From the NCBI RefSeq assembly GCF_007859945.1, contig NZ_SJPQ01000001.1, positions 1,116,001 to 1,180,000 on the forward strand: a stretch of 64,000 nucleotides of DNA, in the 5' to 3' direction. The stretch is from Pseudobythopirellula maris. Lineage in GTDB: Bacteria; Planctomycetota; Planctomycetia; Pirellulales; Lacipirellulaceae. Each line of letters opens with the position of its first letter. The first letter of the stretch is position 1. The translations under genes were made by a program, and so were the position numbers. Shown piece by piece: positions 51,357 to 64,000 of the stretch. The notes beneath the pieces are model-generated. The model worked only from the letters and a program-made list of their open reading frames with translations, had not been told where the DNA came from and did not search any database.

Positions 51357-52193
51357 ATGACGTTTTGTGTAGGAATCGAGGTCCGTGAGGGGATTGTCGC
51401 CCTGGCCGACACCCGCATCGTGCGCGGCAGTGAGCACGTGAACAAGCAGAAGATCGGTACGCTGCAACACGGCGACCGTTCGGTTTTCACCATGACCAGC
51501 GGGCTCCGCTCGGTCCGTGACAAAACGCACTGCTATCTCGAGGAAGTGTTGCGCTGTGGCGATCGCAGCGAGATGCGGCGGCTGTACGAGTTCGCCAACC
51601 TGTTCGGCGAACAGCTCCGCCGGGTGAAGGCGGAGGACGGCCCGTCGCTCTCCTCGACCGGTCACTCCTTCAATCTGCACGCCATCCTTGGAGGCAGGCT
51701 GGCCGACGACGAGCGGCCTCGGCTGCACTACGTTTACCCCGAGGGCAACTGGGTCACCACGGCCGAGGACTCGCCCTACTTCATGATCGGACGGACGTAC
51801 TACGGCAGGCCGATCCTCGACCGTTTGCTCGACTACGAAACGCCGCTCCGCTCGGCGGTGGCCCTGGCCGTGATGGCGTTCGACGCCACACGGTCGAGTG
51901 TGACCGACGTCGGCTTCCCGATCGACGTGGCCGTGCTGGCCGCCAACCAGCACCACCCGACGATCGTGCGTTACTCCGAATCCGATTTGGCCGAGACCAC
52001 CCAGTGGTGGGCGCAACGGCTCAAGCAGTCGCTCGCCGAGTTGCCGGTCGGCTGGGCCGATCCTTTGCTGAGCAGCCAGATCATACAAGACAATCAGAAC
52101 GTGCAGACCAACCAGAGCGGACCCAATGGCCCGAACATCGCTGGCCCGAACGCCGTCGGCCCGAACGCCGGTGGTCAGCCCGTCGTCAATTAG
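51357..52193 (+). CDS. Anbu/bacterial proteasome-like peptidase
   Basis: 278 residues. N-terminal nucleophile hydrolase of the 20S-proteasome superfamily, Anbu type. After removal of the first Met, Thr2 would be the N-terminal nucleophile (TFCVGIEVREGIVALADTRI). Other conserved parts are VFTMTSGLRSVRD, AILGGRLADDERPRLHYVYP and YFMIGRTYYGRPILDRLLDY. The last 37 or so residues (after LLSSQIIQDNQN) form an Asn, Gly and Pro-rich low-complexity tail that ordinary Anbu proteins lack. A transglutaminase-family gene follows, as in known Anbu clusters. Substrate unknown. Confidence 0.9.
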   Translation: MTFCVGIEVREGIVALADTRIVRGSEHVNKQKIGTLQHGDRSVFTMTSGLRSVRDKTHCYLEEVLRCGDRSEMRRLYEFANLFGEQLRRVKAEDGPSLSSTGHSFNLHAILGGRLADDERPRLHYVYPEGNWVTTAEDSPYFMIGRTYYGRPILDRLLDYETPLRSAVALAVMAFDATRSSVTDVGFPIDVAVLAANQHHPTIVRYSESDLAETTQWWAQRLKQSLAELPVGWADPLLSSQIIQDNQNVQTNQSGPNGPNIAGPNAVGPNAGGQPVVN

Positions 52194-52346
52194 CCAGTCG
52201 CCAATCAGAACCAGAACATCCAACCGAGCTGAGCTTTACCATAGGCAAAGAGAGAACGGTCTTTAGGCGGAACCCGAATCTCACACGCCGCGTACCAACC
52301 ACCTTTATCACGAGCGTCAAACCGCTCCCGCCACAAGTCGAGTCCC

Positions 52347-53186
52347 ATGAGCAAAATCCAAGTCCGCACCACGCTGATTTACGAAGTCCGTCAGCCGACA
52401 AACTTCCTGTTCAACATCGGCGTCGAGCAGTCGGACTACCAACGCTGCCTCGAGGAGCATTTCACCAGCAACCCCGAGGTACCGATCGAGGCGTGCAACG
52501 TGGGGGCCGAGGGCAACCGGCTCCACCGGGCGTTTGTTCAGCCGTGCGAATTGCGTATCGACTACTCGGCGCTCGTTGAGCTCACCCCCGAGGTCGACAC
52601 CAGCTGCGAGGTCGGCGAGACCGACATCTCGCAGCTCCCCCCGCAGGTGCTGCCGTACCTCAACCCGAGCCGCTACTGCGAGAGCGACCTGCTCGCGCGG
52701 TTCGCTTTCGAGGAATTCGGCCAGTTGCCGCGCGGCTACCAACGGGTCCAGGCGATCGCCGATTGGGTGAACGACCACCTCGACTACGAGCCCGGCACGA
52801 CGAGCGGCACGACCACCGCCGCCGACGTGCTGCTGCAACGCGCCGGCGTCTGCCGCGACTACGCCCACTTGGCGGTGGCGCTCTGCCGCGGCATCGGGGT
52901 GCCGGCTCGGTACTTGGCGGCGTACGCGGTCGACTTGCAGCCGCCCGATTTTCACGGCGTGTTCGAGGCGTTTCTCGACGGCCACTGGTACCTGTTCGAC
53001 GCCACACGCTTGGCGCCCGTGCAAGGCTTTGTGCGCATCGGCACCGGCCGCGACGCGGCCGACGTGGCCTTCGCCACCCTCAACGGCGTGGCGATCCTGC
53101 AAGAAAAGACGGTGACAACCGTCTGGGCAGACGACGCGCCGCACCAAGACCCGCCGCCGGCCGACGAGGCCATCGCGACCGCTTGA
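52347..53186 (+). CDS. Transglutaminase-like protease-fold protein linked to Anbu
   Basis: 279 residues. The transglutaminase-core triad is visible: Cys169 in RAGVCRDYAHLAVALCR, His203 in PPDFHGVFEAFLDG and Asp218 in HWYLFDATRLAP. N-terminal part (SKIQVRTTLIYEVRQPTNFL) is a beta-sandwich as in bacterial transglutaminase-like proteins. Genes of this family cluster with Anbu in many bacteria, where the complex is thought to cleave or modify proteins. ATP-grasp and alpha-E proteins found in larger versions of the cluster are absent here. Confidence 0.9.
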   Translation: MSKIQVRTTLIYEVRQPTNFLFNIGVEQSDYQRCLEEHFTSNPEVPIEACNVGAEGNRLHRAFVQPCELRIDYSALVELTPEVDTSCEVGETDISQLPPQVLPYLNPSRYCESDLLARFAFEEFGQLPRGYQRVQAIADWVNDHLDYEPGTTSGTTTAADVLLQRAGVCRDYAHLAVALCRGIGVPARYLAAYAVDLQPPDFHGVFEAFLDGHWYLFDATRLAPVQGFVRIGTGRDAADVAFATLNGVAILQEKTVTTVWADDAPHQDPPPADEAIATA

Positions 53187-53289: not shown

Positions 53290-53445
53290 TAGAGCGGTTT
53301 GCTCATAGGTGTAGGCGCTCGGCTCGCGATCGGCGTCATGGCTTCGTCAGCCTGCATCGACAATGCACCGCATTGCCTGCTTCGGCTTCCTCGCCACGAC
53401 CCCAATCGCTTCCCCGCTCGTCCACACCAATTCGAAACCGCTCTA
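53290..53445 (-). mobile_element. MITE-like element, copy 2
   Basis: 156 bases, reverse orientation relative to copy 1, with perfect inverted ends. Its right end forms the TAG stop codon of the GH16 gene. Confidence 0.85.
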
Positions 53446-54339
53446 GCGGTCGACGGCTGGGAGCTGCTGGTACACGCGGACGTAGTCGATCGAGTACCTC
53501 GAGGGGAACCGCGAGCCGCTCGGATCGCCGCCGTTGGTCCCGCCCACCGCGAGGTTGAGGATCAGGTAGTGCGGCTGGCTGAATGGGTTCTGACCCGATT
53601 CGCCCCCGCCGTCGGCGTCGCTCACACGGATCTCGTTCAGCAGTCGGTCGTCGACCGAGAGCCGGATGCTCTCGGCGTCCCAGTCCATGCGCCACACGTG
53701 GAAACGATCGGCCCATCCGGCGCCTAGCTCCTCGATCGGCAGACGCGATTCGTCCCACACCACACGCGGCCGCTCGCCACGCCAGGCGGCGTTTGCGAGT
53801 ATCTCGCCCCGGTAGTACTCCATCAGGTCGATCTCACCACAGGCGGGCCAATGGCCGCTCTCGCCGAGCGTCCAGATCGCCGGCCACATGCCGGGTTGGG
53901 CGTCGATCTTCGCCTTCACCTCAAGCCTGCCGTAACGCCAGGCGTGCTTGCCGCGTGTCGTCAGAGACGCGGAGCTGTATTCGGCGTGGGAGCGGCGGGC
54001 CGCCCACCGCCGCTGACGCGACGAGGCCTCGGGGTCGTGCCCCGGATTGGGCACGCGCTCGCGGCGCGCCTCGATCACGAGCACGCCGTCTTCGCATCGG
54101 GCGTTGTCGGGCTGGTACCACTGCAGCTCGCGATTCCGGACAAAGCCGCGCTCGCAGCCCCAATGTTGCGGGTCGGGCGAGCCATCCGTGTCGAACTCGT
54201 CCGACCAAAGGAGCCGCAGGTTCTCGTCTTGCTGGGGGGCTGTCGCCCAGGCCGCACTCGCTGACGCTAGCAAGGCCGCTGTGGCGAGAGCCCCCAACAG
54301 CGCAATGACGCGGCTGGCCGGTAGTCGATTGCGATTCAT
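53443..54339 (-). CDS. Exported family GH16 glycoside hydrolase
   Basis: 298 residues. Signal peptide (VIALLGALATAALLASASAA). The GH16 catalytic motif is intact as GEIDLMEYY (Glu169 nucleophile, Asp171, Glu174 acid/base). Adjacent features are FARRERVP..., YGRLEVKAKIDAQPGMWPAI and the C-terminal LILNLAVGGTNGGDPSGSRF. GH16 enzymes cut beta-1,3/1,4-glucans or algal galactans; the pairing with a GH2 beta-galactosidase directly upstream hints at a galactan but does not prove it. The last codon is followed by TAG, created by the end of the inserted MITE. It begins 6 bases after the GH2 stop. Confidence 0.93.
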   Translation of the reverse strand: MNRNRLPASRVIALLGALATAALLASASAAWATAPQQDENLRLLWSDEFDTDGSPDPQHWGCERGFVRNRELQWYQPDNARCEDGVLVIEARRERVPNPGHDPEASSRQRRWAARRSHAEYSSASLTTRGKHAWRYGRLEVKAKIDAQPGMWPAIWTLGESGHWPACGEIDLMEYYRGEILANAAWRGERPRVVWDESRLPIEELGAGWADRFHVWRMDWDAESIRLSVDDRLLNEIRVSDADGGGESGQNPFSQPHYLILNLAVGGTNGGDPSGSRFPSRYSIDYVRVYQQLPAVDR

Positions 54340-54345
54340 CGGGGC

Positions 54346-57300
54346 CTACTCGGTGGGGACGATGCGGAAGCGGTACTCGTAAGCCTGTCGGGCGGGCAGG
54401 CGGTAAGGCCGCAGAGGCCGCGCGCCCCACGAGTCCTCGCCCGCAACGCCTTGCTGCTTGTGATCAACGTGCACCGTGATGAAGTCACGCTCGACGAGAT
54501 CGACGCCGCGGTGCTCGCCTTCGAGGTCGTCGAGGGCCAACGGGTAGGCGGCGACGCCGAGCGGCTGGCCGTCGGTCGATTCGAACCGCGCGCCGCCACC
54601 CTCGCCCGTGAACGACGCCCACCGCACGCCGGTGCGGTTGCTGTTCTCCTGCGTCTCGCTGTAGCGGGTCCACAGGTCGTCGACACGGCCCGAGTGCACG
54701 CCGAGCCAAGCGCCGCTGTTGCGGTCGAGATAATTCTCGTGCGGGCCGCGTCCGTACCAGGTCCACTCGCCGAGCGACTTGTCGAGCTGCAGCTGCACGC
54801 CAACCCGCGGCAGATGGGCCAGCCGCTCACCACGGGGCGAAACGCGCACGGCGACCTCGACGGCGCCGTCGCCATGAACCGTGTAAACGAGGCGGGCGGT
54901 CGTGTCGCCCGCGGGCACGCGGAGCTTGTACTGCAGTCGCGCCACGCCGTTCTCGACGCTCACCGATTCGGATTCGACCTCGGCGTGGTCGCCCGCCGTG
55001 CGCCAAACGCCTTGCCGACCCGGCATGCGGTTTCCGCGGTCGTTGTCGGTCGGGGCCCGCCAGAAGCAGAGCCGCAGCGGCCCCTCGAGCAACTCCTTGC
55101 CGGCGAGGCGGTACGACGTCATCTGACCACTCGCCGGAGCGAACGTAACCGCGAACCCGTCGCCCCGAGCGGTAACGCCGTCTCGCTCGTCGAGTTCGAC
55201 CGCGCCCTCTGCCGCGTAGGAATCCATTCGCCGCTCGCCCCAAGGGAGCATCACCTGCTCGCGGGCGACCACGCGATCGGCGGCGCCCCAGGAGCGCTCG
55301 GCCCCTTGCAGGAACTCGATGGTTAAGACGTGCTCCTTGTCGGCATTGGGCGAAACTCCGGTGGCGATGGTCAGCTCGGCCGACCCCTGCGGCTCGAGCG
55401 CGGGGAGGGCGTCCTCGCCGCTGGCGACCGTCTCACCGTCGGCCGTGACGACCCAGCGGTAGGGGGTCCCCTCGGCGTTGGTAAAGAACTGCTCGTTGGT
55501 CACCCGCACCCGCACCGACGAGGCGGCGGCCACGTCGACCGGCTCAACAAGGAAGTGCCGGTACTGATGGAACACCTCCCAGGCGTGGGGATTGGGCGTA
55601 AGGTCGGCGCCCACGACGCCGTTCATGCAGAAGTTGTTGCTGTTGGGCTTGTCGCCAAAGTCGCCGCCGTAGGCGAAGTAGGGGATCGGCTCGCCGCCCC
55701 CCTCGGGCGTCTTGTGCCGCAGCAGGCCTTGGTCGCGCCAGTCCCAGACAAAGCCCCCTTGGTAGAGCGGCAGGCGGCGGACCAAGTCCCAGTACTCTTT
55801 GAGCCCGCCGCACGAGTTGCCCATCGCGTGGCTGTACTCGCATTGGATGAGCGGCCGCCGCTGCTCGGGCGCCTTCTGCATCTCGGCGTCGATGTAGCCC
55901 TGGACCCGGCCAACCTTGAAGTACATGGGCGCAAAGATATCGACCGCCGTTTGCGGGCGGTGCTCCGACACGTGGGCGTTCTCGTACTGCACGGGGCGCG
56001 ACGGGTCGCGGTCGTGCAGCCATTCGAGGATCTTGGCGAACACCGGGCCGTCGCCCGCCTCGTTGCCCATCGACCAAATCACCGCGCAGGCGTGGTTCTT
56101 GTGCAGCTCAACGTTGTTGCGCACCCGGTCGAGGTGCGCCTCGTACCAGCTCATGTCTTTGGGCAACGGGTTGCGGCTGCGGCCGTAGCCGTGCGTCTCG
56201 ATGTTCGCCTCGCTCACGACGTAAAAACCGTACTCGTCGCACAGCTCGAGGAACCGCGGGTCGTTCGGGTAGTGGCTCGTGCGGATCGCGTTCACGTTGA
56301 GCCGCTTCATTTGGTCGAGGCCCTCACGCATCGCCTCTTCGGAGACGTAGTGGCCCGTCACGTGATGGTGGTCGTGGCGATTGACGCCCTTGATGAGCAC
56401 CGGCTCGCCGTTGACCAGCAACTGTCCCTCCTTGATCTCGCTGGTGCGGAACCCGACCTTGCGTGAGTAGACGGCGGTCGTTTCGCCCTCGCTGTTCTTC
56501 AGTTCAAGCACCAGGTCGTATAGTCGGGGCTTCTCGGCCGACCACGGCTCGATGTCGAGTGAATCGGCCGAAGCGGTCGCAACGTCTTCGCCGCCGGCGG
56601 CCGCCTCGCCCATCAGGCCGAGCCGGGCGAGCTCTTGGTCGCCGTCCAGCAGCCGCGCCTCGACGCTGTAGCCGCTGGCCGTGTCGCTGTGGTTCTTGGT
56701 CCAGGTTTGGACCGACAGGACGCCCTTCTCGTAGGCGTCGTCGAGCGAGGCGCTGAGCTCGAAGTCACGCAGGTCGAGCGTCGCCGAGCTCCACAGGTAA
56801 ACGTCGCGGAAGATCCCGCTGAGACGCCAGAAGTCCTGGCACTCCAGATAGCTGCCGTCGCTGAAGCGGTAGACCTCCACGGCGAGCAGGTTCTCGCCCT
56901 CCTGCAGGTACGGCGTCAGATCGAACTCGGCCGGCGTTCGGCTGTCTTGCGAGTAACCGACCTTCTGGCCGTTGCACCACAAATAGAACGCCGAGTCGAC
57001 GCCATTAAAGACGACCCTTGTGCGTCGCCCCGCCCAGTCGTTGGGCAGAGTGAACGTCTTGCGGTAACTGGAGACCGGGTTGCGGTCTTCGTAGGAGGTC
57101 CAATCCCTGCGGGGCTCGCCCATAACGCGCGGGGCGTCGCGTTTGAACGGGTACTCCGAGTTCGCGTAGATCGGCACGCCGTGGCCCTCGAGTTCAACGT
57201 TCGACGGCACGGGGATCTCGCCCCAGGCCGAATCGTCGAAGTCGGCCGTGTAGAAATCGGCGGGCCTCTCCTCGGGCCGACGCGACCAATGGAACTTCCA

Positions 57301-57528
57301 CTCGCCGTTGAGCAGCCGGCAATAGGGGCTCGCCATCCGCGGCTCAGACCGAGCCGACTCGGCGTCGGGCCATGGCATCTTGGTGGCGTGCGGCTCCTCT
57401 TTGTTCACACGAAAGACCGATTGGTCTTCCCATTCCACCGCAGTAGCGAAGCTCGCGGCCAGCAAGCAACCGCCGAGCGCAAGGAGAGTATGGCCGAGCG
57501 GCGTGATCATCGGTGAGGTCATAATCAT
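54346..57528 (-). CDS. Exported GH2 beta-galactosidase-like enzyme
   Basis: 1060 residues with a signal peptide (LLALGGCLLAASFATAVE). GH2 domains are complete: sugar-binding domain, immunoglobulin-like domains, TIM-barrel with acid/base Glu490 (AVIWSMGNEAGDG) and nucleophile Glu564 (IQCEYSHAMGN), and C-terminal beta-sandwich domains. Long LacZ-type layout. Likely cuts beta-galactosides from larger polysaccharide or oligosaccharide. It lies between the DUF1559 gene and GH16 on the same strand with short spacing. Confidence 0.94.
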   Translation of the reverse strand: MIMTSPMITPLGHTLLALGGCLLAASFATAVEWEDQSVFRVNKEEPHATKMPWPDAESARSEPRMASPYCRLLNGEWKFHWSRRPEERPADFYTADFDDSAWGEIPVPSNVELEGHGVPIYANSEYPFKRDAPRVMGEPRRDWTSYEDRNPVSSYRKTFTLPNDWAGRRTRVVFNGVDSAFYLWCNGQKVGYSQDSRTPAEFDLTPYLQEGENLLAVEVYRFSDGSYLECQDFWRLSGIFRDVYLWSSATLDLRDFELSASLDDAYEKGVLSVQTWTKNHSDTASGYSVEARLLDGDQELARLGLMGEAAAGGEDVATASADSLDIEPWSAEKPRLYDLVLELKNSEGETTAVYSRKVGFRTSEIKEGQLLVNGEPVLIKGVNRHDHHHVTGHYVSEEAMREGLDQMKRLNVNAIRTSHYPNDPRFLELCDEYGFYVVSEANIETHGYGRSRNPLPKDMSWYEAHLDRVRNNVELHKNHACAVIWSMGNEAGDGPVFAKILEWLHDRDPSRPVQYENAHVSEHRPQTAVDIFAPMYFKVGRVQGYIDAEMQKAPEQRRPLIQCEYSHAMGNSCGGLKEYWDLVRRLPLYQGGFVWDWRDQGLLRHKTPEGGGEPIPYFAYGGDFGDKPNSNNFCMNGVVGADLTPNPHAWEVFHQYRHFLVEPVDVAAASSVRVRVTNEQFFTNAEGTPYRWVVTADGETVASGEDALPALEPQGSAELTIATGVSPNADKEHVLTIEFLQGAERSWGAADRVVAREQVMLPWGERRMDSYAAEGAVELDERDGVTARGDGFAVTFAPASGQMTSYRLAGKELLEGPLRLCFWRAPTDNDRGNRMPGRQGVWRTAGDHAEVESESVSVENGVARLQYKLRVPAGDTTARLVYTVHGDGAVEVAVRVSPRGERLAHLPRVGVQLQLDKSLGEWTWYGRGPHENYLDRNSGAWLGVHSGRVDDLWTRYSETQENSNRTGVRWASFTGEGGGARFESTDGQPLGVAAYPLALDDLEGEHRGVDLVERDFITVHVDHKQQGVAGEDSWGARPLRPYRLPARQAYEYRFRIVPTE

Positions 57529-57652
57529 GGGGGGTAGTGAGGTTCGCTTTCGGCTCCGAAAGCCCAGTTAATTAGCAAGGATTCGCTTGGAGGCGCATCC
57601 CCTGCAGGAAGGTTGTTCTTAAGAGGCTGGCGCTGAGGGGTGGAGCCCCCGC

Positions 57653-58750
57653 TCATCGGGAGAGGGTCGTGGCGCCATCTTGCCGGTTGCCGCGATCGCG
57701 GTGGACTCGCCAATCGATCTCGTAGCTGACCTCGCGGACGCTCCCATCGCAGTAGGCCACGTTCCAGCCTTGCTGGTGGGCGGAGCCAAACCTGCCCCAG
57801 TGCTCGGCCCGATCGGTAGCGTTGTCGGGCACGGGAGCGAGCTCAACAATCTGGCCCCCTTCGAGGCGGCCCGTTTTACGGTAATTGTCGTTGTTGAAAC
57901 CGGTGCACCAGGTCTCGTTGTCGCCGTAGTCGTAGCCGTTCATGTAATCGGTTTGAGGGATGTGTCGCTCGCCTATCAGGTACGTGTTCGACAGGCCATC
58001 GGTGATCCGCCGCATGGGAACCACGCTGCGCTCGAAGGAGACGCCCGACATCGCGATGCCGTCCGGCAAGTTGCGGTTGGCGAGGTCTTGCTCGCCGCCC
58101 CAGTAGTGGCTGGCCGTCCATCGATCGGCCTCTTGGTAGCTCGAAGGCCCGCGGCCGAAATCGCGGTTGGGCCACTCGTTGTAAACGTGGCCGGAGTTGA
58201 TGGCGTAGTCGCTGCGTCCCGCCACGACCGGGGTGACCGAGTTGAAAAACCCCCAGTCGCCCCCCTCGTTGGCGTTCAGCGGATAGGCGATGTTTGGCCG
58301 GCGCGATGGGCAGTTGATGACCGACAAAGGCGTGCTCACGATCTTGGCCGCCCCGCCCCGCTGCTTGCGAGTCAGCTTGTAGGGGTCGCCGTCGCTCGCT
58401 TGGTCGTAGATGGCGTACTCCTCGAAGTACGGAAGCAGATTGAAGATCCATCCGCCTGGCTGGTCCTTGCTGAAGCCGCGGTCGGCGTCGCCGATCCAGT
58501 ACCACCCCCATCCGCCGCTGGGGAAATGGCCGTGCACATCGTGATGGCCCACACAAGCCAGCGAGAGCTGTTTGAGGTTGTTCTTGCACTCGAGTCGACG
58601 GGCGCTCTCGCGCGCCGCCTGGACGGCGGGCGACACGACCGAGACAAGCATCCCGACGATTGCGATAGTCACCATCAGCTCGACCAGGGTGAACCCGGGA
58701 GCTTGGCGCGGGGCGCGTTGGTTTCGCCATGTCGTGGGATGCATGACCAC
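57653..58750 (-). CDS. DUF1559 pseudopilin-like protein, copy 1
   Basis: 365 residues. Type IV pilin-like N-terminus (PGFTLVELMVTIAIVGMLVS with the cleavage site before Phe), followed by the planctomycete DUF1559 core: PFSGGWGWYWIGDADRGFSK-like turn, NCPSRRPNIAYPLNANEGGD, ITDGLSNTYLIGERHI, NETWCTGFNNDN and HWGRFGSAHQQGWNVAYCDG. This is a surface-located, filament-related fold. DUF1559 proteins occur in very many copies in planctomycetes and lack a proven function. Its position between FecR/LamG and the GH2/GH16 enzymes suggests a role in surface capture or in holding these enzymes, unproven. Confidence 0.93.
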   Translation of the reverse strand: MVMHPTTWRNQRAPRQAPGFTLVELMVTIAIVGMLVSVVSPAVQAARESARRLECKNNLKQLSLACVGHHDVHGHFPSGGWGWYWIGDADRGFSKDQPGGWIFNLLPYFEEYAIYDQASDGDPYKLTRKQRGGAAKIVSTPLSVINCPSRRPNIAYPLNANEGGDWGFFNSVTPVVAGRSDYAINSGHVYNEWPNRDFGRGPSSYQEADRWTASHYWGGEQDLANRNLPDGIAMSGVSFERSVVPMRRITDGLSNTYLIGERHIPQTDYMNGYDYGDNETWCTGFNNDNYRKTGRLEGGQIVELAPVPDNATDRAEHWGRFGSAHQQGWNVAYCDGSVREVSYEIDWRVHRDRGNRQDGATTLSR

Positions 58751-58869
58751 GGCGGTGTTCGAGATGAGTAAAAAAGAGAAGAATCGTCGCCGCGGCGACG
58801 AGACGCATTATAGCAGCACTCCGCGAGCGGTTTGCAAGTCGGCGTGATAGTGTCCTTAGGCAAGTAGTT

Positions 58870-60600
58870 TCAGGGCGCCGCCGTCTCGGCGTAACGCTGC
58901 TGGAAATAGTGGTTCAGCTCGTCCATCTCCGCGGGTTCGAGCCGCGTATTGTAGACGAGTACCTCGTACAGATTGCCGAAGAAGCCTGCTTCGATGTGCG
59001 GGTGCGGGTGACTGCCAAGGTACCGGCGGCCGGTGCTGATCAGGGCGATCGGCGCCGACGCCGTTCCCTGACTCTCGCCATTGGCCCACAGCTCGGCGTG
59101 ATCGTCGGTGGAGTCGTAGGCGTAAGCCGCCACCGCCACGCCCGCGTGTTCGACCGGAGCCGAGCGGATCACGCCGACGTTCGAAGCGCTCCCCTGGCCG
59201 GGCCAAACCCAGCCCCTCACGGAGCGGTCCGCAAACAGCGCCAGCTCCATCGAGGGCGCCCCGGGGTACTTCAGCAAGATCCCGCCGTGGTAGTCGTTAG
59301 CGAAGCTCGTGGGGCCCGGCGAGTACGCCACGACCACGGTCTGCCGCGCGCCGGTCTCCATCGGCGTGGTCGCCATGTAGGTCGACCAGCCGTCGAACCG
59401 CAACGCGCGGCGGCCCCGCTCGTCGATCACCAGCCGCGGGCAACGCCGTTCGTCGAACTGCCAGGCGTCATCGGAGAAATCGTTGTCGCCCACCTGCAGG
59501 TCGCGCCACGTGGCGACCGCGTCGCCTTCCTTCGCTTCGGTGAGCGTGTCCGAGGCGAGCCAAAGCTCCAGCTTGCGGTGCACCGGTAGCGGCGGGAGCT
59601 CCGCGCTCGACAGCACCCGATCGAAGCTGCGCACGAAGTCGTTGTTGCGGGCGGCGAACCTCACCGGCACGTCGCTCTCCGAGTCGAACCGCATCGCCTC
59701 GTCGCGTTTGGCGTGGATCAGCTCGGTCGAGGCGTCCGCCTGGCGTGAGCGGGCGACCACGTCGCCATCGAACACGTGGACCTCCGAATCGCCCGAGTCT
59801 TCGACCGACACGCCGAACTGGGTGCCGATGTCGACCACCTCGGACGTGGGAGTCAGGATCGTGTAGCCGCGTGCGGAGCGCGGCACCGCGGCCGCGATCT
59901 TGCCGCGTGATAGCGTGGTCTCGATCGAAGAGCTCGCCTCGAAGCTGGCAGGTCCCTCGACCGTCACTTTGGCCCCGGTCGTCAGCAGCAACTCGAGCAC
60001 GCCACTGGCCAGTTGGACCGTGTCGCCCTTGCTGATCGCGTCGCCAAACGCCAGTTCGCTTTCGTCCGATTCCCACACGGCGTCGCGAACGCCGGTCACG
60101 CGGGCGACCAACTGCGAGTCTTCCGTGGCGGACCAGCTGCGCTCGTCGCTCTCGTCGGCCACGGCGCCGGCCGGATCGTCTTGCTCCGGATCAACGATGG
60201 CCAGAGAGTGGAGGCGCTTGATCTTCGAGAGCGTTACCAAGTTCTGAGTCAGGAGAGCCGCCATCAGCACCGCGGCGATGGCGGTCATCAACAAGCCATG
60301 GGTGTCGATAAACCGCAGCAGGCCACCCCGAGCGGGGCGAGCCGGCTCGGCGGCGGGCGGCGGCGTCAGCAAGTGGGTGAGCTCCAAGGCGCGTCGCTCG
60401 CTACGCGTCTCCTCGGCGAGCAGCGACTCGTCGACAAGAAAGCGGCTTGCCCGCGCACGGATCTCCGGATTGTGGCGCAACACCGAGTCGAGCCACTCCT
60501 TTTGCTCGGCGGTCACCGAGCCGTCGATCGACCGGAGGAGCACTTCCTCCAGATCGTCTTCGGCGGGGGCGTCTGCCTGTGGGTGGGTTTCTTGGTTCAT
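58870..60600 (-). CDS. FecR-type regulator fused to a LamG-like domain
   Basis: 576 residues from ATG at 60600. N-terminal cytoplasmic stretch with Arg/Glu-rich helices (ERRALELTHLLTPP), a single membrane helix (LMTAIAAVLMAALLTQNLVT near 100-120), a FecR-like domain at about 155-295 (VTVEGPASFEASSSIETTLS, GTQFGVSVEDSGDSEVHVFDG) and a C-terminal LamG/concanavalin-like domain from about 345. FecR proteins pass extracellular signals to a sigma factor; LamG binds glycans. Here the ECF sigma gene is immediately upstream on the same strand, so this could be the glycan sensor for that sigma factor. Confidence 0.9.
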   Translation of the reverse strand: MNQETHPQADAPAEDDLEEVLLRSIDGSVTAEQKEWLDSVLRHNPEIRARASRFLVDESLLAEETRSERRALELTHLLTPPPAAEPARPARGGLLRFIDTHGLLMTAIAAVLMAALLTQNLVTLSKIKRLHSLAIVDPEQDDPAGAVADESDERSWSATEDSQLVARVTGVRDAVWESDESELAFGDAISKGDTVQLASGVLELLLTTGAKVTVEGPASFEASSSIETTLSRGKIAAAVPRSARGYTILTPTSEVVDIGTQFGVSVEDSGDSEVHVFDGDVVARSRQADASTELIHAKRDEAMRFDSESDVPVRFAARNNDFVRSFDRVLSSAELPPLPVHRKLELWLASDTLTEAKEGDAVATWRDLQVGDNDFSDDAWQFDERRCPRLVIDERGRRALRFDGWSTYMATTPMETGARQTVVVAYSPGPTSFANDYHGGILLKYPGAPSMELALFADRSVRGWVWPGQGSASNVGVIRSAPVEHAGVAVAAYAYDSTDDHAELWANGESQGTASAPIALISTGRRYLGSHPHPHIEAGFFGNLYEVLVYNTRLEPAEMDELNHYFQQRYAETAAP

Positions 60601-60741
60601 GGTCGGGGGCTCTGTTCCGGGGCCCAAGACTTAAGGTTTCTCAGCGATGGCATCGGCTCGGACGATCCGTTCCGACTCCGCGGTGAGGCGCGAGCCAATC
60701 GCGACACGCCTCCAGCACGACCGGCCCTTTCATTTTTGCGA

Positions 60742-61320
60742 TCAGGCCTTTAACTGACGCTCGACACAATTCTCTAGCGCACGGCGGACCCGTAGGAAAG
60801 CGCATTTTATGGCGTTCTCCGTCCGGCCCAGGTTCTCCGCGATCTGCAAAAGCGTGCCGCCCTCTTCGTAACGCATCTGGATCATTTGGCGACTCTTCTT
60901 GGGCAGTGTTTTTAGGCACGTCCGCAAAGCGTCTTGCCGTTCGCCCGGGTCGGCGACCTCGTCTTGAGCGGACTGCATCAACAGGCTGGCGACCTCGCTC
61001 GAAAATACCAGCTTGTCGCGACTACGGTCTCGATAAAACGAAAGGATCTCGTATTTGGCGATCGTCACGGCCCACGGCATGAACTCGGCGTCGGGCCGGA
61101 AGCTCGCCGCGTTCTTCCACAGCACCAAGTTGGTCCGCTGCATCACGTCGGCGGCGTCGTTGTGGTTGCCGAGCGCCGCGAATATGTAGGCCCGCAAGCC
61201 CGACTGGTTGCGGGTCAGCAAGTCAATAAAACGGTCGAGCTCCGACATGCCCGGCAAGCCGGCGCCCGACGATTCGTCGGGGCCGTCGCCACCGGGGTTG
61301 TTGCTGGGGGGATCGTGCAT
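60742..61320 (-). CDS. ECF-type sigma-70 factor
   Basis: 192 residues from ATG at 61320; the frame stays open to 61569 and an alternative ATG is at 61476, so the start is uncertain. Sigma region 2 is AALGNHNDAADVMQRTNLVL with EFMPWAVTIAKYEILSFYRD, region 4 is KKSRQMIQMRYEEGGTLLQI followed by AENLGRTENAIKCAFLRVRR. This matches the ECF subfamily abundant in planctomycetes. It likely drives the linked genes and is likely controlled by the FecR/LamG protein that follows. The region upstream is a divergent promoter with a palindrome. Confidence 0.92.
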   Translation of the reverse strand: MHDPPSNNPGGDGPDESSGAGLPGMSELDRFIDLLTRNQSGLRAYIFAALGNHNDAADVMQRTNLVLWKNAASFRPDAEFMPWAVTIAKYEILSFYRDRSRDKLVFSSEVASLLMQSAQDEVADPGERQDALRTCLKTLPKKSRQMIQMRYEEGGTLLQIAENLGRTENAIKCAFLRVRRALENCVERQLKA

Positions 61321-61864
61321 GCCGGCCGATGTAACTCTGCGGGGCGGGCCCGGATTGGACGAGGCCTGACCGCTACTGGATTCGTTGAAGGGCCGAACGC
61401 CGCGCGTCGCGTCGTCTGCGATTCCGGCGCGAGCGGCGTTCGGCCTCTTGCTCTTAGTGTCCGAGAGGGGCTGCATGGTGTCGCGCTTTGTTGGATTATT
61501 GGCGTTCCCGGTGGGAGCGCGCGGGTGTCCCGAGTGTGACCTAGAAAAGAGGCGAAAGAAGAGCGGCACTCTTTTTAGCGCTTTTTGACGGAATCCTCAA
61601 CACGCTCGCCGCCCGGCCGGACACCCCTAGCGAAGGCCTTGCTGACGCCGATCCGTCAGATTTGGCTAGCGGCGGAAAATAGCATACCGCTATCGCCCGC
61701 CGCGTCGTTGGGTCGCACACGCATGTCGGCGACCCTCTTTTCACTGAACTACCACTACCCACGGAGCAGGCGGCGTGGCCGAGAGGCCATCCCCCGTGCA
61801 CCCGCTGGGCTTAGCCTCTTCTCAAGCCAAACTCTTCTCCATCCAAGAAGGTCAAGGAGTCTCG
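61321..61864. other. Divergent promoter region of the sigma/pseudopilin locus
   Basis: About 540 bases between the sigma gene and the second DUF1559 gene. A palindrome at 61667-61692 (TAGCGG, 14 bases, CCGCTA) is the only structured element I found. No gene is supported here, although the sigma frame extends into it. Confidence 0.6.
61667..61692. promoter_or_regulatory. Palindrome, possible operator
   Basis: TAGCGG, CGGAAAATAGCATA, CCGCTA in the divergent region between sigma factor and DUF1559 genes. Confidence 0.4.
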
Positions 61865-62971
61865 ATGAGACCTAAGCATGACCCCCGCACGCCGTCGCCC
61901 GAGCCCCGGCGAATCAATTGCGGCTTCACGCTGGTTGAATTGCTCGTCGTGATCGCGATCATCGGCATTTTAGTGGCGTTGCTGCTGCCCGCAGTGCAGG
62001 CCGCCCGTGAAGCGGCGCGTCGCAACCAGTGCAAGAGCCAGCTGAAGCAACTAGCATTGGGGTCGCTCAACCATCACGACGTGCAGGGCTTTTTCCAGTC
62101 GGGCGGCTGGGGCTGGGGCTACGTGGGCGACCCCGACTTCGGATTCGGCGAAGATCAGCCCGGCGGCTGGGTCTTCAGCACGCTTCCTTTCGTTGAGGAG
62201 CAGCAACTCTACGACCTCAGCGGCAACGGCGCAATCCACGACGCCACGGGGAGACGGCCCGACCGTACGCAGCTCGAATTCGCCACCGAAGTGGTTCAGT
62301 CGATCGTGTCGATCACGAATTGCCCCACCCGACGCCAGCCGATTCTCTACCCTCGCAACGACGGCGCCGGCACGCTCCGCAACGCGAGAACGCCGCTCGA
62401 TACCTCGCGGATGGACTACGCCATGAACTCGGGGCACGCTTACAACGAGTTCCCCGATGGGTCCGCTTTCCAAGCGGGGCCGGCAACCTACGCAAGCGCT
62501 GATATCAATACCTACAATGCCCAGGTAGACCAGGAGCTTAAGCGAGAAGGGCCCAACGGCAGCCCGCTCTATTCGGGCATCTCCTTCGGACGCAGCGAAA
62601 TAAGCCTGCGAAAAATCACCGACGGGACCTCGCACACCTATCTGATCGGCGAGAAGGCCCTGCCCGTGGCCAACTACTCCAACGGCGCCGACCGGGGCGA
62701 CAACGAGACCTGGTGCACAGGCTTTAACAACGACAACTTCCGCAAGACGGGCCGCCTGGTTGGGGGAGAGATCGTCGAGGCGACACCGGTTTCCGACACC
62801 AACACAGCCGCCGAAAACCACGGCCGTTTCGGCTCCGCCCACCCGGGAGTCTGGCTCGCAGCCCTCTGCGATGGCAGCGTCCACGCCGTGAGCTTCGACA
62901 TCGACTGGCAAATCCACCGCGACCTAGGAAACCGCACCGATGGCAACGTCGCCTCGATCGATCAGCTCTAA
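61865..62971 (+). CDS. DUF1559 pseudopilin-like protein, copy 2
   Basis: 368 residues. N-terminal pilin signal CGFTLVELLVVIAIIGILVA, then the DUF1559 core in the same order as copy 1: FQSGGWGWGYVGDPDFGFGE, INCPTRR-like segment TNCPTRRQPILYPRNDGAGT, ITDGTSHTYLIGEKAL, NETWCTGFNNDNFRKTGRLV and HGRFGSAHPGVWLAALCDGS. The two proteins share all these blocks, so they are paralogues. AAGGAG lies five bases before the ATG at 61865. Transcribed away from the sigma factor. Confidence 0.93.
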   Translation: MRPKHDPRTPSPEPRRINCGFTLVELLVVIAIIGILVALLLPAVQAAREAARRNQCKSQLKQLALGSLNHHDVQGFFQSGGWGWGYVGDPDFGFGEDQPGGWVFSTLPFVEEQQLYDLSGNGAIHDATGRRPDRTQLEFATEVVQSIVSITNCPTRRQPILYPRNDGAGTLRNARTPLDTSRMDYAMNSGHAYNEFPDGSAFQAGPATYASADINTYNAQVDQELKREGPNGSPLYSGISFGRSEISLRKITDGTSHTYLIGEKALPVANYSNGADRGDNETWCTGFNNDNFRKTGRLVGGEIVEATPVSDTNTAAENHGRFGSAHPGVWLAALCDGSVHAVSFDIDWQIHRDLGNRTDGNVASIDQL

Positions 62972-63260
62972 GAAATCCCGAGCGTCCTGCTTTTTTTATG
63001 ACACCCCCACGGCCTCACCGGACAATACTGCCGGAGAAGCACCGCCGATAGGTTCCGCAATGCTGGCGTATGAATCACGCCCCATCACGACGCCCCGGCC
63101 GCTACCCAGAACTCCTCTCAAGCACTTTTCCAAGTCATCCAGCGCCCAACGCATCCGTTTTTTTGATGCGGAGCGGACGCCGCAGCTTCGCCCAGCGGTT
63201 CCGCTGAGCACCAGATCGACTGACACACCTTGTCTGAACACATCTCGCTCGGAGCTTTCC

Positions 63261-64000
63261 ATGCCTAAACCCCAGGCTTTCAGCGCAAGTCGCCTCCGGC
63301 TTCTGATCACCACGACCGCACTGCTCGTCGCCACAAACGCCCAAGCCTTCGACGTGTTCTGGACCGGCGGCGTCGGCTCCTGGACCTCCGGGGGCAATTG
63401 GGACGCCCAGGCCGAACCCGACTCCTTCTTCGAAGACGTGCCGATCATCAACAACGGCGGCACGGCGACGCTCAGCACCTCGGCGATCGGCGCCGCCGGA
63501 TTGGTGCTCGGCCAATCGGCGGGCGACTCGGGCACGGTGATCATCCAGCCGGGCGGCGACCTGGAATTGATCGACACGCCGGGAGCGGCGTCGCTCGTCC
63601 CGCCGGACGGCATCGCCAACATCGGCCTCGCCGGCCAAGCCTTGCTCGAGGTTCACGGCGGCGGGTCGTTCAGCTCCACCTCGATCGACATCAACGCCTT
63701 GGGCGCTCTGCGCGTGGGGACCGCCGGGGCGGGCGGCGCCACGGTCGCCTCGACAGGCTCGCTGTTCAACGACGGCGTCCTCGAGGTTCGCGGCGCGGGC
63801 CACGCCTTCACGGTCGCCACCAACGCCTCGCTCGAGGGCAACAGCGTCTTCGTACCGCACCTCACTTCAAGCGTGCACTCCGCCATCGGCGTGACGGGCA
63901 ACGCCGCTCTGGGTGGCGTGCTGCGGCCCATGGCGACCGGCGTTGTCCCGGCGGTTGGCGACAGCTGGGACCTGATCGACGCGGAGACGATTTCGGGCGG
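63261..64000 (+). CDS. Exported repeat protein, cut by the right edge
   Basis: The frame runs from ATG at 63261 to the window end (246 residues seen). A signal peptide (RLRLLITTTALLVATNAQA) is followed by beta-rich repeats of autotransporter/adhesin character (VFWTGGVGSWTSGGNWD, GTVIIQPGGDLELIDTPG, ASLEGNSVFVPHL). The end is missing, so a PEP-CTERM sorting signal, common in such planctomycete proteins, cannot be checked. It follows the second DUF1559 gene by about 290 bases on the same strand, and may belong to the same locus. GGAG lies before the ATG. Confidence 0.8.
   Translation, partial: MPKPQAFSASRLRLLITTTALLVATNAQAFDVFWTGGVGSWTSGGNWDAQAEPDSFFEDVPIINNGGTATLSTSAIGAAGLVLGQSAGDSGTVIIQPGGDLELIDTPGAASLVPPDGIANIGLAGQALLEVHGGGSFSSTSIDINALGALRVGTAGAGGATVASTGSLFNDGVLEVRGAGHAFTVATNASLEGNSVFVPHLTSSVHSAIGVTGNAALGGVLRPMATGVVPAVGDSWDLIDAETISG

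Follow-up and report, generated by a model that had tools for sequence, protein, structure and literature searches.

An ECF sigma/FecR-LamG locus with paired DUF1559 pseudopilins and PEP-CTERM proteins in Pseudobythopirellula maris and its possible role in glycan handling

Relation to described systems

The described systems closest to the locus reported here are FecI/FecR/FecA signaling, the polysaccharide utilization loci (PULs) of Bacteroidota, the planctomycete loci that join an extracytoplasmic function (ECF) sigma factor and FecR to PSD1/PSCyt and DUF1501 proteins, and PEP-CTERM/exosortase sorting. The locus lies at the end of a window, meaning the whole 64,000-nucleotide stretch that was analyzed (G000:C1:1116001-1180000), in the 5.07 Mb, six-contig genome of Pseudobythopirellula maris. 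Genes for an ECF sigma factor, a FecR-type regulator with a LamG-like domain and the pseudopilin-like protein DUF1559a share the minus strand with two glycoside hydrolase (GH) genes, GH2 and GH16, while a second pseudopilin gene, DUF1559b, and a PEP-CTERM gene diverge from them. The cluster may show how planctomycetes switch on a polysaccharide-handling surface. It bears on two questions: how whole polysaccharides are captured and taken up in this group, and the function of the very large DUF1559 family.

As in FecI/FecR/FecA, an ECF sigma gene is followed by the gene for a single-pass FecR-type regulator. The locus departs from that system in that no TonB barrel is encoded in the window (the genome has two, both outside it), the regulator bears its own LamG-like domain, and the neighbors are surface proteins and carbohydrate enzymes instead of iron uptake functions. 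The STN signaling domain gave no match over the cut-off genome-wide and two below it, so a Fec-type transducer appears to be missing. Some PULs of Bacteroidota are under ECF/anti-sigma control. The locus resembles them in that its sigma/FecR-type pair adjoins glycoside hydrolases, with sulfatases in paralogous loci, and differs in that pseudopilins and PEP-CTERM proteins stand in for SusC/SusD. No SusC or SusD was found among the 14 proteins scanned, SusD not being sought genome-wide, which agrees with a preliminary description of the window, made from the sequence alone, that had reported no such pair.

Outside the family, planctomycete loci show the same sigma-FecR order, but PSD1/PSCyt and DUF1501 proteins follow FecR there (in 4/6 scanned loci: L207, L208, L219 and L221) and DUF1559 is rarer (6/20). 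An ECF link to a PSD1/PSC protein has been published for Rhodopirellula (PMC2754498). C-terminal PEP signals at 8/8 core loci and exosortase matches at three places in the genome are in keeping with PEP-CTERM/exosortase sorting; a floc-former PEP-CTERM gene is RpoN-dependent (PMC9850573), whereas the neighbor here is an ECF/FecR pair. No description of a planctomycete FecR-LamG/ECF sigma combination was found in the literature searched, whose coverage of subscription journals is partial. The assembly is a variant within ECF/FecR control and does not form a category of its own.

The core locus, its promoter-like element and its surroundings

A search for FecR homologues covered 97 genomes from the family and order and gave a match in 62. 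Forty sigma/FecR loci, the window's own included, were then compared in fetched stretches of 12.7 to 20 kb: 36 upper-list FecR matches and four other TIGR02989 loci of the same genome. The genomes behind the counts are related, and the loci are not independent cases. In eight genomes of the family, representing six genera, sigma, FecR/LamG and DUF1559a occupy one strand and a homologous PEP-CTERM gene and a second DUF1559 gene diverge, at protein identities of about 34-70% to those of the window. DUF1559a directly follows FecR in 8/8 orthologous loci and shares 59-70% identity with the copies at the seven others; for DUF1559b the values are 60-62% in four loci and 48-58% in L067-L069. PEP signals in all eight were recognized by regular expression, the TIGR02595 profile being applied to the window's protein only. 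In L062, which is the window's own locus, and in L063-L066 the divergent order is second DUF1559, then PEP-CTERM gene. Among named relatives with this locus the closest is Botrimarina colliarenosi (L102), whose regulator is 60% identical to the window's. Conservation beyond close relatives, which the preliminary description had named as decisive, thus extends to the family for the core and not for the full set with GH2 and GH16, found at 0/7 other core loci (the L063 and L069 stretches end with contigs).

The sigma factor (60742-61320, minus strand) scores 148.7 bits against TIGR02989, the Rhodopirellula/Verrucomicrobium family, whose curated cut-off is 124.55. Its open reading frame extends to 61569; the start is probably 61320 (MHDPPSNN) or later and a long start is doubtful, because the promoter-like element at 61454-61491 overlaps the ATG at 61476. 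The genome holds 24 sigma-like matches, five above the TIGR02989 cut-off, and a FecR-like protein follows all five, that of the fifth (L085) being recognized only through a 41-bit BLAST match. The regulator (58870-60600, minus strand), with the sigma gene directly upstream, combines an N-terminus that is helical in a low-confidence AlphaFold model, a single membrane segment read from the sequence, a FecR domain (27.2 bits, Pfam cut-off 24) and a LamG-like domain. Of the FecR/LamG sensor proposed earlier, the FecR part stands; the LamG part is weak in the protein itself (Laminin_G_3, 21.5 bits, below the cut-off of 27.6) and is carried by the family, Laminin_G_3 being matched by 34/39 homologues at E<=0.01 and FecR by 34/39 (39 of 41 BLAST-matched proteins were scanned, two at 41 bits being left out). 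A fold search with the low-confidence model placed a pentraxin, CBM40 and a beta-glucanase on top, none at E<=0.001. The 39-protein profile, run against solved chains, gave weak matches to an S-layer-domain protein (E 4e-4) and the PilC minor pilin (E 0.003), with sialidases and a pentraxin lower down at E >0.3. In the usual FecR topology the C-terminal domain faces the periplasm. If this holds here, the LamG-like domain would sense a glycan after its passage through the outer membrane, which fits the dextran seen in the periplasm of Planctopirus and Gemmata (PMC5394234).

Both pseudopilin-like proteins carry an SBP_bac_10 domain and a prepilin N-terminus, and they are 53% identical. DUF1559a (57653-58750, minus strand; ATG at 58744) ends in an H-X9-DG C-terminus; DUF1559b lies at 61865-62971 on the plus strand. 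Both were identified with Pfam and NCBIfam profiles. The divergence of a second DUF1559 and a secreted protein (from 63261, plus strand) from the minus-strand genes was confirmed. Described earlier as a secreted repeat protein, the latter can now be named a PEP-CTERM protein (TIGR02595 18.7 bits, cut-off 16); its first part (63261-64000), with a dockerin-like stretch seen by eye, lies in the window and the gene runs on to L062:13174. Past the window end, L062 first encodes a protein whose PEP-CTERM match is near the cut-off. Next come a GSDH-type sugar dehydrogenase that matches dockerin and ends in a PEP-like C-terminus, a further PEP-CTERM protein and, cut by the stretch end, a Glyco_hydro_cc enzyme (L062:17742-20000, plus strand). 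The C-terminal part of this enzyme, which from its name we take to be GH128, resembles the PEP-CTERM proteins of the gene group. A secreted GSDH-type sugar dehydrogenase is present in 6/8 core stretches (L062-L066 and L068) and was not found in those of L067 and L069. Three of the six (L064, L065 and L066) have an NPCBM carbohydrate-binding module; the L064 gene sits beyond a gap of >350 bases, and the L068 copy is cut off at the stretch end.

Gibbs sampling of the 300 bases upstream of the eight sigma genes gave a bipartite consensus, CGACACC-N14-GGACA, with a score of 224 against 165-173 in four shuffled sets (six random starts against three). The element precedes 8/8 core sigma genes and lies in the window at 61454-61491 (minus strand). 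A 16-wide motif run scored 128, compared with 106-109 in shuffles, and aligned the same sites in only some loci. A matrix was built from sigma-side sites only, the scored locus being left out each time; the sigma site was the best in 8/8 regions, these being the sites that had defined the model. Two backgrounds were used, a general one, mostly coding, and an intergenic one of 233 pieces and 76,705 bases on both strands, whose size limits its smallest p values. The divergent-side sites, on which the matrix was not trained, reached p<0.01 in 5/8 loci with the general background and p<0.02 in 5/8 with the intergenic one (three of these <0.01), for combined p values of 1.8e-8 and 7.1e-7. In the window they precede DUF1559b (61590-61627, plus strand; p 0.007 general, 0.004 intergenic) and the PEP-CTERM gene (62991-63028, plus strand, GACACC-N14-GGACA; p 0.0006 and 0.002), and a weak site stands before the next divergent gene (p 0.012, general background). 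Among 20 control regions, scanned on both strands, the top matrix score was 17.9; the PEP-CTERM site, at 17.7, comes close to it. Exact matches to GACACC-N14-GGACA number four in the genome, two of them at this locus, and the reversed pattern has three, which suggests that the regulon, if it exists, is local. A wider regulon made up of exact sites across the genome was considered and rejected, since the 24 matches listed in five genomes, five of them at the core locus, compare with 13 for the reversed control. Nor did the paralogous sigma genes yield a common element: their Gibbs output scored higher than shuffled sets (199 against 148-158 and 224 against 180-187; eight starts against three) but was A/T-rich and lacked a sharp consensus.

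DUF1559 proteins accompany 36/40 sigma/FecR loci and 2/20 same-family control regions (Fisher p 1.2e-9), as counted with a profile built from module loci; the genome has 59 DUF1559 matches, 58 over the cut-off, or about 0.23 per 20 kb. Carbohydrate enzymes were assessed by Pfam counts in 78 downstream proteins (L062, DUF1559 proteins and proteins <130 residues being set aside), in 86 of 96 proteins from the first four divergent genes per locus under the same filters, and in 110 of 277 random proteins, the controls being shorter on average (42,095 residues in 110 against 43,512 in the 78 downstream). Sulfatases number 23/78 downstream and 10/86 divergent, or 33/164 against 2/110 random (p 1.7e-6); PEP-CTERM proteins 5 and 21, or 26/164 against 3/110 (p 4.6e-4); and Dockerin_1 proteins 11 and 16, or 27/164 against 3/110 (p 2.6e-4). 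The GH matches near the pairs are GH2 (4), GH53 (4 plus 3) and GH97, GH35 and GH43 (2 each). No GH family is among the 25/206 control Pfam families shown (25/65 downstream, 25/27 divergent), so single GH matches in the control would stay hidden. Among the GH2 matches listed, own genome included, 4/28 fall within ~8 kb of a paralogous sigma/FecR locus (G000:C1:222467, G005:C9:21892, G021:C31:26425 and G024:C1:475823).

Two of the paralogous loci belong to the genome studied (L082 and L083): one has GH97 and an alpha-amylase-like protein, the other a GH2 enzyme downstream and a second GH2 on the opposite strand. At L206:7970-13805, in one genome, three FecR-like matches lie inside 6 kb.

A model of glycan-responsive control and its alternatives

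What might such a locus do? We propose, with a confidence that stops just short of even, that it is a self-switching ECF/FecR module whose lectin-like domain controls a surface of paired pseudopilins and PEP-CTERM proteins together with exchangeable carbohydrate enzymes. In this model the membrane-bound FecR-type regulator, its LamG-like end facing outward, would hold the ECF sigma factor until the domain meets a ligand, most likely a polysaccharide or oligosaccharide already in the periplasm. Contact would free or activate the sigma factor, which would transcribe its own operon of sigma, FecR/LamG and DUF1559a and, in this genome, perhaps reach GH2 and GH16 by read-through. It would also fire the divergent genes for DUF1559b, the PEP-CTERM proteins, the secreted sugar dehydrogenase and the GH128-like enzyme. 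A surface that captures or holds the glycan may then be built from both pseudopilins and the PEP-CTERM proteins. The enzymes attached to the module vary between genomes. In line with the model, gold-dextran bound to pili-like fibers and dextran entered the periplasm in two planctomycetes (PMC5394234). Gene order, domains, conservation, the shared promoter-like element and the enrichment are observations; control by this sigma factor, ligand binding, fiber formation and the substrate are what we infer. For the GH16 and GH128-like enzymes a beta-1,3-glucan would fit.

A bolder version, which we consider unlikely on present evidence, makes the locus, in planctomycetes of this family, a pilus-based counterpart of a PUL, free of SusC/SusD, in which an inner-membrane FecR fused to a lectin-like domain would sense periplasmic glycan without a TonB transducer and switch on a fiber of paired pseudopilins, exosortase-anchored sugar-handling proteins and interchangeable enzymes. 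If true, the DUF1559 pair would be the missing 'fishing rod' fiber. Pilin-based uptake has the status of a hypothesis in a 2025 review (PMC12078418), a 2023 screen counted, in one species, 68 DUF1559 paralogues whose function is unknown (PMC10632474), and a 2024 survey states that, to its authors' knowledge, planctomycete clusters of carbohydrate-active enzymes are without functional characterization (PMC11131199). Since the cluster is conserved and comes with its own sigma factor, predicted promoter elements and a pseudopilin pair, polysaccharide uptake and DUF1559 function can be tested directly in cultivated strains.

Several observations weigh against the glycan-responsive model. The AlphaFold models are poor (mean pLDDT, the predicted local distance difference test, 38.9 for the full regulator and 41.9 for its C-terminal part), which leaves the LamG fold dependent on weak sequence matches. 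The promoter consensus is exact in only 3/8 sigma sites, divergent-side sites are lacking in L064 and L067 and borderline in L069 (p 0.054 and 0.063), and a matrix scan of the window's own locus found no sigma-type element before DUF1559a or GH2. L067-L069 have the PEP-CTERM gene at the head of the divergent side, with DUF1559 second or fourth. The dehydrogenases of L062 and L063 are 73% alike and only ~25% like the L064 and L066 copies; what the core loci have in common is therefore a kind of enzyme, not one orthologue. Because GH2 and GH16 were not seen at the other seven core loci, the glycan link of the subfamily rests on the dehydrogenase, the LamG-like domain and the paralogous modules. 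The best solved match of GH16 is an enzyme from a gut mucin O-glycanase study, ahead of non-specific beta-glucanases and laminarinases, so beta-glucan is no more than a candidate substrate. Across order, class and phylum outside the family, DUF1559 occurs at 6/20 FecR loci (3/20 stretches were <12 kb, and the L218 gene calls had no FecR match), so the pseudopilin link is typical of the family, not of the phylum. DUF1559 has been called a solute-binding family, and 9/74 of its genes in Rhodopirellula are up in cold and salt shock (PMC2754498), which suggests other roles.

The differing divergent order, the GH16 match and the stress responses of DUF1559 genes weaken the glycan-responsive model and raise its main rival, an attachment or matrix module or stress-responsive surface with incidental glycosidases. 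As an attachment or biofilm-matrix module, which we rate as possible though less probable than our model, the sigma/FecR pair would control PEP-CTERM proteins and pseudopilins on an envelope or surface cue, and GH2 and GH16 would be unrelated neighbors. Exopolysaccharide and floc formation have been linked to PEP-CTERM systems (PMC1569441, PMC9850573); the core consists mostly of surface proteins, GH2 and GH16 do not recur at the other core loci, and a hairpin upstream of DUF1559a adds to the case, as does the cold and salt response. Such a module accounts less readily for a secreted sugar dehydrogenase in six of eight stretches, half of the copies with an NPCBM module, or for sulfatases and GHs in the paralogous modules well above control. 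We think it improbable that the bipartite element serves another regulator as operator or another sigma factor as promoter, with the TIGR02989 sigma acting on genes elsewhere. No sharp element of the kind is common to the paralogous sigma genes, and divergent-side sites are missing in 2/8 loci; the element is nonetheless directional and non-palindromic, keeps 14 bases between its halves where the sites are aligned, stands before sigma in every core locus, and shows no dispersed regulon. Finally, planctomycetes have so many DUF1559, sigma and PEP-CTERM genes that these might meet by accident, as the 59 DUF1559 and 24 sigma-like matches in this genome illustrate. With the same gene set in eight genomes at such divergent identities, and DUF1559 so frequent at the 40 loci relative to control regions, this is very improbable overall. 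For the core it stands refuted, whereas the GH2-GH16 pair may be such a case. Of the earlier interpretation, the plausibility of sensor/sigma self-activation (a promoter-like element before sigma and, in most loci, divergent genes), the DUF1559 link to sigma/FecR pairs within the family and the enrichment of carbohydrate enzymes around them all held up, while GH2-GH16 as a conserved part did not.

Glycoside hydrolases, gene calls and neighbors

The two enzymes are lineage-specific neighbors of the core, and their best homologues in relatives sit elsewhere, away from the core locus. The GH2 enzyme (54346-57528, minus strand; Pfam and NCBIfam) is a LacZ-type beta-galactosidase scoring 1028.1 bits against the Bga2A equivalog (cut-off 999). 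The GH16 enzyme (53443-54339, minus strand; Pfam) has a signal-peptide-like N-terminus and an EIDLME motif. Gene calling used simple scripts, so starts and small genes are uncertain. All genes named earlier were found in place, and the minus-strand gaps of 141, 119, 124 and 6 bases were reproduced on recomputation. The single five-gene operon suggested from them is made doubtful by the hairpin between FecR and DUF1559a and the lack of sigma-type elements noted above; a conserved five-gene operon with GH2 and GH16 was ruled out by their absence from the other orthologous loci. The terminator- or attenuator-like hairpin (58784-58801, minus strand) has 7 pairs followed by a T-rich run and is a possible attenuator by its sequence; its conservation was judged only by reading the eight gaps, and 12 such sites were found against 8.4 expected. 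The TATAAT hexamer that precedes DUF1559a has no counterpart at the other core loci except TATAGT in L069. Convergent with the GH16 gene, positions 51357-53186 (plus strand) encode a proteasome-family protein, possibly Anbu-like, and then a transglutaminase-family protein.

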